A stretch of 52,043 bases of DNA. It comes from an uncultured Elusimicrobia bacterium. GTDB lineage: Bacteria > Elusimicrobiota > Elusimicrobia > Elusimicrobiales > UBA9959. Shown one piece after another: positions 48,665 through 52,043 of this stretch. The DNA is taken from assembly GCA_903889965.1 (NCBI GenBank), contig CAISZM010000062.1, positions 1 to 52,043 on the forward strand. The letters run 5' to 3'. The translations under genes were made by a program, and so were the position numbers. The notes under the pieces were generated by a model. The model was not told the DNA's origin. It ran no database searches and saw only the letters and a list, made by a program, of their open reading frames with translations. Position 1 is the first letter of the stretch. Each line of letters opens with the position of its first letter.

Positions 48665-50559
48665 CGTTGAAAAAGAATTTCAGGCAGCTCCTTTTCTGGT
48701 TCCTCGCCTTCACGCTTTTTATCGCCGTTTACCAGAACATGAAGGGCATTGAGGGTGACCGCCAGATCCCCTATTCCGAATTCAAGCAGAAGCTGCGCGA
48801 CAAGCAGATAACAAAGGTCAGCGTACGCCCCGACCTCATAAAGGGCGAGATGGAAGAGCCCGTGGCGAACGCGGTGTCCACCGGCACCAGCGTGGCCAAT
48901 GTGTCCACGACCAGCGCGCCCAACGTGTCCACCGGCACCGTTGTGGCCGCGGCCATGAAAAAGGTCAATTTCAAGACCCGGCCCCTTACGGACCCCAAGC
49001 TGATCGAGGATATGGAAGCCGCGGGCGTTACGGATTTTTCCGCCGAGGCCGACAGCAGCTGGATAGCGAGCCTTATACTGAATATCGGCTGGATACTGCT
49101 TTTCATCTTCCTGTGGTGGTTCCTGTTCATGCGCCAAGCCCAAATGGGCGGCAAGCAGGCGATGTCCTTCGGTAAATCAAAGGCCCGCCAGCAGAACCTG
49201 AAAAAACAGAAGATCTCCCTGAAGGATGTTGCCGGCTGCGATGAGACCAAGGAAGAGCTGCGCGACATAATCGATTATCTCAAGAACCCCAAGAAATACC
49301 AGCTCCTGGGCGGGGAACTGCCGAAGGGCGTTCTGCTTTACGGCCCTCCCGGAACCGGCAAGACGCTGCTGGCCCGCGCTGTGGCCGGCGAGGCCGGCGT
49401 GCCGTTCTTCACCGCCTCGGGTTCGGAGTTCGTGGAGATGTTCGTGGGCGTGGGAGCCAGCCGCGTGCGCGACCTGTTCGAGCGCGCCAAGAAAAGCGCC
49501 CCCGCTATAGTTTTCGTCGACGAGCTTGACGCCGTTGGGCGGTCGCGCTTCGCCGGCATAGGCGGCGGCCACGACGAGCGCGAGCAGACCCTCAACCAGA
49601 TGCTTGTGGAACTGGACGGCTTCGAGGCAAACGAGGGGATAATACTCATCGGCGCCACCAACCGCCCCGACGTGCTGGATAACGCGCTGCTGCGCCCCGG
49701 CCGCTTCGACAGGCGCATAAACGTGCCCGTGCCGGACATAAAAGGCCGGCTGGAAATATTGAATATACACTCCAAGAAAGTGAAGCTTACCGCGGGCACG
49801 GACCTCTCCGTGATAGCCCGCCATACCCCGGGTTTCGTGGGCGCGGACCTCGCGAATATCGTAAACGAGGCGGCCATCCTCGCCGCCAAGAAAGAGCAGA
49901 AATCGGTGGACCTGAAGGACCTGGAGGAGGCCATCGAGAAAATGATAGCCGGACCCCAGCGAAAATCGCGCATAATTTCGGAGGCGGAAAAAAAGGTGGT
50001 GGCCTACCACGAGTCGGGCCATACGCTGGTGGCTAAGATCCTCCCCGGCTGCGACCCCGTGCACAAGGTGACCATAATCCCGCGCGGGCCCGCCCTCGGC
50101 TATACCATGCAGATGCCGCTGGAGGATAAATACCTTACCTCCCGGACCGAGATAATGAACAGGCTTTGCGTGCTGCTGGGCGGCCGCGCCGCTGAAGAGC
50201 TGGTCTTTAACGAGATCACTACCGGCGCGCACGACGACCTGGCCAAGGTCACCAATTACGCCCAGAAGATGGTGCTGGAATTCGGCATGAGCGACAAGAT
50301 AGGGCCTATAACGCTTAAAAAAGACGAATCCGAGGTGTTCCTGGGCCGCGACATAGTGCGCCAGCCCGGCTACTCCAACGAGACCGCGCGCAGCGTGGAC
50401 GAGGAGATAAAGCGCATCGTCAACGAGTGCTATATAAAAGCCAAGGCGGCGCTTACGGACAACCGCAAGGCCCTCGACGCTATCGCCGCGCGCCTGGTCG
50501 AGAACGAGGTTATAGACGCGGCGGAGATAGATTCTCTGATGGCCGCCGCGAAGGCCTGA
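48661..50559 (+). CDS. ftsH: ATP-dependent zinc metalloprotease FtsH
   Basis: The product is 632 residues. Membrane helices at about 9-25 and 134-158 flank a periplasmic domain. Walker A is GPPGTGKT at 228-235, Walker B VFVDELD at 284-290, the second region of homology includes [20 protein letters not shown], and HESGH at 450-454 is the zinc site. It extracts and degrades membrane proteins. Residues 72-97 are an odd Val/Ser/Thr-rich repeat in the periplasmic domain. The ATG overlaps the hpt stop. Confidence 0.98.
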
Positions 50560-50575
50560 GGAATAGGGGAACTCT

Positions 50576-51406
50576 TTGTACCTGCATTACATACGCAATC
50601 TGGTGGATATCCTGGCCGTATACTACATAGTATACCGGCTGATACTGCTGCTTAAGGGCACCCGCGCGATGCAGGTCGTCTGGGGCGTCTTCATTCTAGC
50701 CGGCATCACCGCCGCGGCCAAGCTGCTCAACCTGTACTCCACGGTCTGGCTGATGCAGCAGTTCTGGCTGGCCGGCATAGTCCTCCTGATAGTCGTTTTC
50801 CAGCCCGAGATACGTTTCGCGCTGGCCAATATCGGTTCCAACCCGCTGGGGCGGGTGATGGTCTCCCAGGAATACCGTTTTATCGGAGAGATGATGGAGG
50901 CCGTTCGCACCGCCGCGGCCGAGAAGATGGGCATGCTGGTAGTGCTCGAGCAGGATATGTCCCTTCGCGACGTGGTGGATACTGGTGTCAGGATAAACGG
51001 CGAGGTCTCGAAAGAGATGCTGCAGACGATATTCCACGAGAATACCCTTCTGCACGACGGCGCCGTGGTTATAGCCAATAACCGGCTTGTGGCCGCGGGC
51101 TGCATACTGCCGCTCACCGCGCAGCAGGAACTTTCAAAGATACTCGGTATGAGGCACCGCGCGGCGCTGGGACTCAGCGAAGCGGCCGACGCGATAATCA
51201 TAATAGTTTCCGAGGAAACCGGAATGCTTTCAGTGGCCAGGAACGGAAAACTGCAGCAGGCCGTGGACCCGAAGGACCTTGAGGCCATGCTCTACCAGCT
51301 GTACCGTTCCAAGGCGGAGAAGACCCTGCTGCGCAAGGCCAACAGGCCCGCGGCAACCCCGGCACCCTCCGCCGCCGCCCCGGCTCAGCAGCCACCGCAG
51401 GCCTGA
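50576..51406 (+). CDS. cdaA: diadenylate cyclase CdaA
   Basis: The product is 276 residues, starting with TTG (GGGGA five bases ahead). Three membrane helices (about 10-26, 33-52 and 62-78, ending FQPEIRFAL) are followed by the DAC domain, with DGA at 161-163 and RHR at 193-195 for ATP binding. It makes c-di-AMP, which controls osmolyte uptake and wall turnover. The C-terminus is a Pro/Ala-rich tail. CdaA is usually followed by CdaR; here only a 32-residue anchor-like peptide follows. Confidence 0.96.
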   Translation: MYLHYIRNLVDILAVYYIVYRLILLLKGTRAMQVVWGVFILAGITAAAKLLNLYSTVWLMQQFWLAGIVLLIVVFQPEIRFALANIGSNPLGRVMVSQEYRFIGEMMEAVRTAAAEKMGMLVVLEQDMSLRDVVDTGVRINGEVSKEMLQTIFHENTLLHDGAVVIANNRLVAAGCILPLTAQQELSKILGMRHRAALGLSEAADAIIIIVSEETGMLSVARNGKLQQAVDPKDLEAMLYQLYRSKAEKTLLRKANRPAATPAPSAAAPAQQPPQA

Positions 51407-51407
51407 C

Positions 51408-51506
51408 ATGAACATATACGAACTCTTTACCCGCAACTGGAAGATAAAGCTGTTCTCCCTTGTAATTGCCGTCCTCATCTGGTACTTCGTAACCGGCGGC
51501 GCCTGA
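51408..51506 (+). CDS. 32-residue CdaR-anchor-like peptide
   Basis: The ATG is one base after the cdaA stop. The peptide (MNIYELFTRNWKIKLFSLV, then a helix with WYF and the end VTGGA) matches the first membrane helix and its N-K-L-S-L lead of CdaR/YbbR proteins, but none of the YbbR beta domains follow: the frame ends in TGA and a strong terminator comes 28 bases later. It could be a shortened CdaR, a new small regulator of CdaA, or a decayed gene. Confidence 0.7.
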   Translation: MNIYELFTRNWKIKLFSLVIAVLIWYFVTGGA

Positions 51507-51533
51507 CAGGCGGTTGATTAGGTGCTCGCCTAT

Positions 51534-51567
51534 AATTAAAAAAGCCCCTTTCGGGGCTTTTTTAATT
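51534..51567. terminator. bidirectional terminator after cdaA
   Basis: AATTAAAAAAGCCCC and GGGGCTTTTTTAATT form a perfect 15-bp stem around TTTC. It has T-runs on both strands. Confidence 0.95.
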
Positions 51568-51577
51568 TGATCCGGTT

Positions 51578-51615
51578 GGACTGTGCCGCAGTCTTGCTAT
51601 GCTACGGACACAAGA
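51578..51615 (+). repeat. 38-bp direct repeat, copy 1
   Basis: GGACTGTGCCGCAGTC followed by TTGCTATGCTACGGACACAA. It matches 51645-51682 at 32 of 38 positions. Confidence 0.8.
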
Positions 51616-51644
51616 CGGACTTTTTGAAAGCAAAACTGCGGGGT

Positions 51645-51682
51645 GGACTTAGCCACCGTTTTGCTACGCTACGGACACAAGA
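51645..51682 (+). repeat. 38-bp direct repeat, copy 2
   Basis: GGACTTAGCCACCGTT followed by TTGCTACGCTACGGACACAA. The spacer from copy 1 is 29 bases, containing GCAAAAC, which pairs with GTTTTGC in this copy. Confidence 0.8.
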
Positions 51683-51736
51683 GAAGTTTTTGGTTCGGGG
51701 TCGACTGTGCTAACCTGCTTGTGTTTCGAAGACTGC

Positions 51737-51761
51737 GCCATTTTCCCGGGGGGAAAATGGC
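51737..51761. repeat. perfect palindrome beside the tRNA-like element
   Basis: GCCATTTTCCC and GGGAAAATGGC pair around GGG. Its right arm runs into the tRNA-Ser-like sequence. Confidence 0.85.
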
Positions 51762-51870
51762 GGAGAGGGAGGGATTCGGCCACAGGTTCCCTCCTCGCCG
51801 TCGCTCGGCGGGACCCGCGGCCCCGCCTCGCCGCTGCCGCCTTCTGGCGTCGCGGCTCCGGCTTTCGAAT
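51758..51870 (-). repeat. tRNA-Ser 3'-end-like palindromic element
   Basis: Read on the - strand, the end is GAATCCCTCCCTCTCCGCCA, which is what the T-arm, acceptor strand and CCA of a bacterial tRNA-Ser look like. The T stem GGAGGG/CCCTCC is present but its loop has 15 bases, not 7. Upstream there is no D-arm or anticodon arm, only a GC-rich stretch of nested inverted repeats beginning GGGGATTCGAAAGCC. It is therefore a tRNA-derived or tRNA-mimicking repeat and not a working gene. Confidence 0.55.
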
Positions 51871-51876
51871 CCCCAC

Positions 51877-51898
51877 GCGAAACATCATTATGTTTCGC
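51877..51898. repeat. perfect hairpin
   Basis: GCGAAACAT and ATGTTTCGC pair around CATT, directly next to the tRNA-like element. Confidence 0.8.
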
Positions 51899-51909
51899 TC
51901 CTCTCCTCG

Positions 51910-51945
51910 CAATTTAAAAGGCCCCTTGCGGGGCCATTTAAATTG
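51910..51945. repeat. terminator-like palindrome
   Basis: CAATTTAAAAGGCCCC and GGGGCCATTTAAATTG pair with one mismatch around TTGC. It resembles the element at 51534 in plan (A/T outer arm, GCCCC inner arm). The remaining bases to 52043 hold no gene; AAGGAG at 52034-52039 may be the ribosome binding site of a gene beyond the window. Confidence 0.6.
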
Positions 51946-52043
51946 ACTCGGAGCTTCACTATCAAAGTTCGAGGTTACTTCGCGCAACACCCCGAGGAAA
52001 CATTATAAATACCGCTTTCGATCTGTTTTAGCGAAGGAGTCCC

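Follow-up and report, generated by a model that had tools for sequence, protein, structure and literature searches.

An RtT-like tRNA-tail repeat unit in an Elusimicrobia contig and its relatives behind tRNA genes

Introduction

Close to the end of the 52,043-nt stretch of DNA analysed here (the window, which is an entire contig, G000:C62, of an incomplete assembly of 2.24 Mb in 87 contigs), a nest of palindromes on the minus strand finishes in what reads as the 3′ end of a tRNA-Ser. An initial annotation took this for either a mobile, tRNA-derived intergenic element or a site left by an integrated element. What kind of sequence ends like a tRNA, and does it belong to a tRNA, to a visitor or to neither? 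The answer, well supported as to identity and anatomy, is a new sequence family of the RtT-like kind: the unit is an inverted repeat of a tRNA tail, its left arm split by a hairpin and its middle occupied by a conserved core.

Results

Anatomy of the window copy

ARAGORN sees no tRNA gene and no full cloverleaf with an anticodon in the window, which rules out an ordinary tRNA, and Rfam gave no credible match to the window element. The minus strand of 51729-51900 folds to -101.2 kcal/mol, whereas shuffled versions average -73.9 (z -6.2; 0/200 shuffles as low); this score and further copies in the same genome rule out chance palindromes. The structure is thus not due to chance, and what is decisive is the presence of four more strong copies in the own genome and of many elsewhere.

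Read in the direction of the tRNA, the family has the order P1 5′ arm, P2 9-bp hairpin, P3 5′ arm, two-armed core and tail copy, where the P3 5′ arm is the complement of T-stem and T-loop and the tail copy starts at T-loop C56 (Table 1). In the window the tail copy reads CGAATCCCTCCCTCTCCGCCA (minus strand, 51778 to 51758), and the core between 5′ arm and tail copy is about 85 nt long. The covariance model R1 matches the window copy at 51770-51899 with 138.1 bits (E 3.4e-27), a score that is not independent because R1 was built partly from this copy itself. The proposed tRNA-Ser origin of the tail is supported by the identity of its last 20 nt with the tRNA-Ser(CGA) of the relative L112, and the 9-bp hairpin is indeed perfect, its halves (51877-51885/51890-51898) pairing without mismatch. 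The T-like stem is also present, but with 8 bp (GGGATTCG / CGAATCCC) rather than the 6 bp originally counted, and the flanking palindrome, described as perfect over 11 bp, exists as a 15-nt inverted repeat (51733-51747/51751-51765) that is 93% complementary.

Table 1. Features of the window copy, and loci of two further sequence classes (positions are those of the window unless a locus is named).
Feature	Position	Strand	Basis
Whole element, RtT-like tRNA-tail repeat unit, tRNA-Ser(CGA) version	51758..51906	-	R1 match, with arms added by reading
3′ arm, copy of tRNA-Ser(CGA) tail, T-loop C56 to CCA	51758..51778	-	Agrees exactly with tRNA-Ser(cga) of relative L112 over the final 20 nt
Conserved core, two helical arms (P4/P5 and P6), motifs GAAAG.CGGAG and GTGNCC	51779..51865	-	Alignments A2, A3 and A5; covariation
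P3 5′ arm GGGATTCG, inverted complement of the T-arm copy	51866..51873	-	100% complementary to 51771-51778
P2 hairpin (9 bp, AATG loop), which splits the 5′ arm where acceptor and T-stem meet	51877..51898	-	Perfect inverted repeat
P1 5′ arm GGAGAGG, complementary to CCTCTCC of the acceptor strand (51762-51768)	51900..51906	-	Read from sequence
Terminator-like hairpin just 5′ of the unit	51910..51945	-	Inverted repeat; terminator-like scan 51935-51920
Palindrome starting in CGCCA of the tail copy	51733..51765	.	15-nt arms, 93% complementary
Second class of unit, GGTCCGCAAGGGCG core	L134:906-1025, L155:707-826, L169:780-897, L191:590-708, L164:763-876
TTGTTGCTCACTTGCTCGAGTACCTCC block	L313, L319, L333, L335, L337, L341

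Within the contig, the window copy stands without a tRNA. The 137 nt between the unit and the contig end at 52043 contain none, terminator-like hairpin included, and this hairpin occupies the spot where relatives carry the tRNA's terminator. A functional tRNA-Ser with the same tail had been suggested as a check, and none was found in the incomplete assembly, among whose tRNA-Ser genes UGA, GCU and GGA are present and CGA is absent; the matching gene occurs in relatives only, where the Ser(CGA) unit lies about 48-54 nt behind its tRNA (among the copies listed, 83 of 90). The absence at the window copy is likely due to an insert between tRNA and unit, or to loss of the tRNA. Inserts of this sort were seen at two other loci. 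At L091 the insert lies between a tRNA and its unit, and at L141 it lies between two units at a tRNA-Met (740-2580), its left end bearing a tail-repeat unit and its far end a partial tRNA that begins near the anticodon; the 373-aa ORF of the insert, judged by eye, is presumably Fic-like. Such inserts may explain the missing tRNA at the window copy, but they are not what creates the unit.

Copies in the same genome and in relatives

A DNA search of the own genome, proposed as a test of copy number, gave related copies, and the element proved to be multicopy. Five strong copies match R1, the covariance model from the five-copy alignment A2, which was built from these same five. The other four lie directly behind tRNA-Leu(CAG), tRNA-Tyr(GTA), tRNA-Ser(GGA) and tRNA-Val(CAC), and each ends in the tail of its own tRNA; the Leu, Tyr and Ser(GGA) copies came from the DNA search and the Val(CAC) copy from reading behind the genome's tRNAs. 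Three weaker R1 matches (E 9e-11 to 7e-6) are also present, two of them on the strand opposite to the nearby tRNA.

Among 150 relatives, which span two families and include the own genome, 124 have R1 matches at E<=0.01, and a looser-filter search left two of ten genomes without any unit. Across the phylum, 123/340 genomes were positive at E<=1e-5, nearly all of one order, with five genomes of other families. The suggestion that the window holds a tRNA-derived repeat that has spread therefore stands, given a family that sits behind many tRNAs in the own genome and in relatives. A scan of the GTDB collection with a pattern of the core returned at least 114 stretches, with many Patescibacteria and Elusimicrobiota and some Deltaproteobacteria; the pattern fixed part of the core and T-arm copy, so that the scan is uninformative on conservation there. 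When 80 of these stretches and five other loci were given to R1, 69 of the 85 sources had a match and 16 had none, the latter mostly Actinobacteria and other apparent chance hits. A same-strand tRNA lay at most 600 nt upstream in 69/85 R1 matches from the scan loci and the five others. Several Patescibacteria copies, among those listed, have no clear P2. Among viral contigs, the core pattern was found in only one.

Arms that follow the neighbouring tRNA

We aligned 114 copies from 100 loci, comprising the best-scoring and the fetched ones. A same-strand tRNA lies within 600 nt upstream of 100 of them, mostly 10-60 nt away, and 23 tRNA types are represented; among the other 14 are contig ends, copies parted from a tRNA by an insert and weaker opposite-strand copies. 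The 10-nt T-arm tail agrees with the neighbouring tRNA at a mean of 9.21/10 positions, against 6.51 for other tRNA types. At the opposite end, the P1 arm is the complement of the acceptor strand, sometimes reaching the discriminator base and CCA (TGGCTCCGGGAC for Gln, TGGTGGACGTG for Ala): where the acceptor copy is intact (56 copies), the 7-nt P1 5′ arm fits its own tRNA at 5.2/7 positions and other tRNAs at 3.4. The acceptor part of the tail has been lost in many copies. Whole-tRNA mimicry, in which P1 would copy the tRNA 5′ strand, was rejected, as the arm tends to complement the tail instead (5/6 informative positions). Among the copies listed (83 of 90), five Ala copies have GGACGTG or GGTCGTG where the tRNA has GGGCGTG, and L171 retains the tRNA letters. 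In the same 83 copies the unit is frequently found behind the tRNA's terminator, which makes transcription doubtful at many loci, that of the window included.

Covariation and pairing

Standard pairs fill 95.4% of the pair cells in the alignment of 90 copies, and 40/45 pairs have changes on both sides. Double-change cells number 909 there, compared to 254 after shuffling and at most 139 when slid, and 839 compared to 236 after shuffling in a Patescibacteria-rich set, with the proviso that both alignments were fitted to the model, which favours structure. The P3 pairing covaries across the family. In P2, 1001/1010 pair cells are Watson-Crick over the family, and G.U makes up 5/1006 in P2 versus 19/728 in tRNA stems (p 0.0002). 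Pooled over all stems, the G.U share is 1.6% and 3.6% in the two sets versus 2.6%, no clear difference; we therefore do not take Watson-Crick-only pairing as proof of a role as DNA, since the pooled stems are not clearly different from tRNA stems.

With pairs that are mostly G.U omitted, the ratio of G.U to A.C was 71:37 and 102:48 in the two sets, compared to 19:1 in the stems of neighbouring tRNAs (Fisher p 0.007 and 0.015). This ratio of about 2:1 argues against tight RNA constraint: the units seem less constrained as RNA than tRNA is. P6 has two G.U pairs that range from common to fixed (104/114 and 67/114), which suggests a specific recognised single-strand shape rather than neutral DNA. 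A TnpB-like guide RNA, with the core followed by a 3′ guide, was also considered and set aside, as the would-be seed is paired in the predicted fold.

Cores shared between tRNAs

Near-identical cores were found behind different tRNAs: 98% identity between the Gln and Met copies of G016, 100% between G096 Ser and G112 Gln, 95% between G110 Tyr and G145 Leu, and 93% between the window Ser copy and G050 Arg. This indicates that the core moves and that the arms fit the new tRNA. The P2 stem differs despite the like core in the pairs read (G016 Gln/Met, G096 Ser/G112 Gln, window/G050). Among 98 of the 114 copies (omitting identical rows and copies without a near tRNA, the window's excepted), nearest core pairs share their tRNA type in 29/98 cases (permutation mean 5.6) and their genome in 15/98 (2.8), and hence much of the evolution is local or vertical.

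Arrays and variable occupancy were also observed. At the tRNA-Met of L183 a tandem array of 2.5 x 193 bp begins inside the T-arm. Behind tRNA-Ser(GGA), within one genus, some species carry the unit and others have a terminator followed by the apparent next gene.

Comparison with RtT and other known systems

The E. coli RtT element (RF00391) is built in a similar way: it is non-coding, lies behind tRNA genes in tandem, repeats the local tRNA's tail at its end, and its base helix pairs a 5′ arm with the tail copy (RF00391 alignment and rtT). Behind tyrT/tyrV of K-12, rtT tail copies are spaced 178 nt, in an array that resembles the one at L183; each unit opens with an arm that complements the tail and agrees at its end with tRNA-Tyr in 19 of the final 20 nt. 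Within the selection of K-12 tRNA clusters that we examined, exact 17/17-nt tail copies follow tyrV, lysQ, lysV and argQ, and no 17-nt copy follows, for example, serU, alaX, leuV, leuZ or metV; RF00391 scores above threshold at the Tyr and Lys arrays and below it at the argV copy. As the E. coli tail copies follow Tyr, Lys and Arg, a tRNA-specific tail is also a property of RtT.

The family departs from E. coli RtT in its core sequence and inner fold, in its P2 hairpin, which is missing from the RF00391 structure, and in its host range of Elusimicrobiota and Patescibacteria. RF00391 had no match at E<=10 in window 50500-52043 and none at E<=1 in the family loci L002, L003, L034, L228 and L251, and in the reverse direction R1 scored 5.1 bits on rtT, no match. 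The pairwise score of the window unit with rtT was equalled by 8/500 shuffles. We also considered homology to rtT for the Pro(cgg) unit of the own genome and rejected it, with 144/500 shuffles scoring as high. Judged from sequence, then, the family and RtT have the same architecture, and homology is not demonstrated. In the titles and abstract openings of the literature on Elusimicrobiota and Patescibacteria, we found nothing on such elements.

Integron attC sites are folded imperfect palindromes of variable sequence and conserved shape, and the family resembles them in folded shape only, in a general way. Like the attL/attR sites of genomic islands, the family carries a duplicate of a tRNA 3′ end that starts in the T-loop; unlike them, it holds this duplicate in a conserved fold of about 150 nt with an inverted partner, without integrase or cargo. 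The window contig ends at 52043, and family copies mostly lie right behind intact tRNAs. The idea of an attachment-site scar found no support in this comparison, since the same tail copy belongs to a conserved structured unit that usually follows an intact tRNA at a distance of 10-60 nt. REP/RAYT and other small palindromic repeats are likewise short, structured and intergenic, but the family has tRNA-specific arms and its copy-rich genomes have no Y1 transposase.

Candidate protein partners

We compared unit copy number with three protein families over the 150 relatives. Y1_Tnp (PF01797) is present in 72/150, with no match in the copy-rich G000, G016, G025 and G062-G066. Phage_integrase (PF00589) is present in 148/150, with exactly two matches each in G025, G112, G132 and G135, which carry 7-8 unit copies; these two tyrosine recombinases are probably the XerC/XerD pair. 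RVT_1 (PF00078) is present in 31/150. None of the three tracks unit copy number in these tables, read by eye, and none of a Y1 transposase, a tyrosine recombinase or a reverse transcriptase looks required.

Discussion

Origin and spread of the unit

Starting from what was observed (anatomy, arms specific to the tRNA, covariation, tandem arrays, units present or absent at one and the same tRNA in related species, and cores shared across tRNAs), we read the element with moderate confidence as a non-coding tRNA-tail repeat unit of RtT-like design that is anchored behind its tRNA by the tail copy and probably spreads by means of that anchor. The 5′ arm pairs with the tail copy and thereby closes the whole unit into one branched fold. 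Units may multiply or change site by host recombination or by replication template switching anchored on tail copies; what is transferred would then be the core, and the arms would derive from the local tRNA or be corrected to it. The loci examined yielded neither an insertion nor an excision product. By analogy with E. coli RtT, a read-through RNA could be set free by the enzymes of tRNA 3′-end trimming. The pattern can be explained without a host function, and most copies look selfish or neutral, although presence in so many relatives (124/150) over two families could point to host use. Tentatively, and with clearly less confidence, tRNA-tail repeats may be a wide class of re-targeting small elements, found at least in Elusimicrobiota, Patescibacteria and Proteobacteria, in which the core moves and both arms become those of the new tRNA through palindrome copying at the DNA level, with no dedicated enzyme.

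Two other readings have to be weighed seriously, each of them improbable to about the same degree. If the unit were a non-autonomous mobile element, a recombinase acting in trans would recognise its folded hairpin and insert it at tRNA T-loops, leaving tail copies as attachment duplicates; the start of these copies at C56, the occupied and empty sites, the movement of cores between tRNAs and the insert at L141, bounded by a partial tRNA-Met and carrying a unit at its end, are all consistent with it. However, a normal integrase circle has one fixed tail and could not switch tRNA, neither a Y1 transposase, a reverse transcriptase nor an extra tyrosine recombinase follows copy number, and the core pattern was met in only one viral contig. 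A host RNA gene, on the other hand, would yield a structured RNA that is freed from tRNA transcripts and acts, for instance, under amino-acid starvation, a role that has been proposed for E. coli RtT. PMC4986893 describes how RtT RNAs come out of tRNA transcripts, links them to the stringent response and reports Northern signals near Asn- and Lys-tRNA in Actinobacillus; such processed RNA, the strong covariation and the nearly fixed P6 G.U pairs favour a host RNA. Against it are the patchy distribution between species and tRNA types, the terminators that often precede the unit, and the G.U:A.C ratio of about 2:1 where neighbouring tRNA stems have 19:1. The literature consulted (including PMC4986893 and PMC2965389) regards rtT/RtT as something that tRNA operons of E. 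coli and its relatives give off as a by-product.

Far less probable than either is an antisense or decoy role, in which the 5′ arm would pair with the tail of the neighbouring tRNA, or the tail copy would divert integrating elements from the real gene. The arm can reach the discriminator base and CCA, as in the Gln and Ala examples, but it is already paired in cis within the fold, and the acceptor part of the tail is gone from many copies.

Returning to the tail-anchored repeat unit, its interest lies in the same design being met in distant phyla with different cores, with arms that follow the tRNA in 23 types or more and with cores that pass from one tRNA to another, which raises a testable question: how does a 150-nt unit re-fit itself to a new tRNA? 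Such repeats may also break assemblies at tRNA genes, and they would mislead searches for attachment sites.

Other sequences beside tRNA genes

Several contigs of G000 (C17, C24, C55, C63, C64 and C74) begin or end at a tRNA gene, and perhaps the reason is that tail repeats break the assembly there. A different type of unit (GAAGCCGAC...) was seen in the own genome behind the tRNA-Pro(CGG) of L039 and the tRNA-Thr(CGT) of L033; it carries a copy of the tRNA-Pro tail and an inverted T-arm, and the Thr unit is cut by the contig end. A second class, with a hairpin of the same kind and a core like ..GGTCCGCAAGGGCG.., lies on the strand opposite to the tRNA and is sometimes nested with the first class. 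In several species a recurring block (TTGTTGCTCACTTGCTCGAGTACCTCC... and variants) was found behind tRNA-Ser(GGA), in or adjoining the same place (for both classes, see Table 1).

Beside the window unit, at 51574-51682, are two 42-nt direct repeats that are 83% alike (GCTAYGCTACGGACACAAGA); strings resembling them also occur behind tRNA-Leu(GAG) and tRNA-Gln(CTG) of the same genome, and they are likely another tRNA-side repeat family. At lower coordinates, a 32-codon frame starting MNIYELFTRNWKIKLFSLVIAVLIWYFVTGGA (51409-51507) directly follows the gene at 50576-51406. By eye, we take this gene to be DisA_N/CdaA-like, and the frame presumably resembles the start of YbbR/CdaR cut short.
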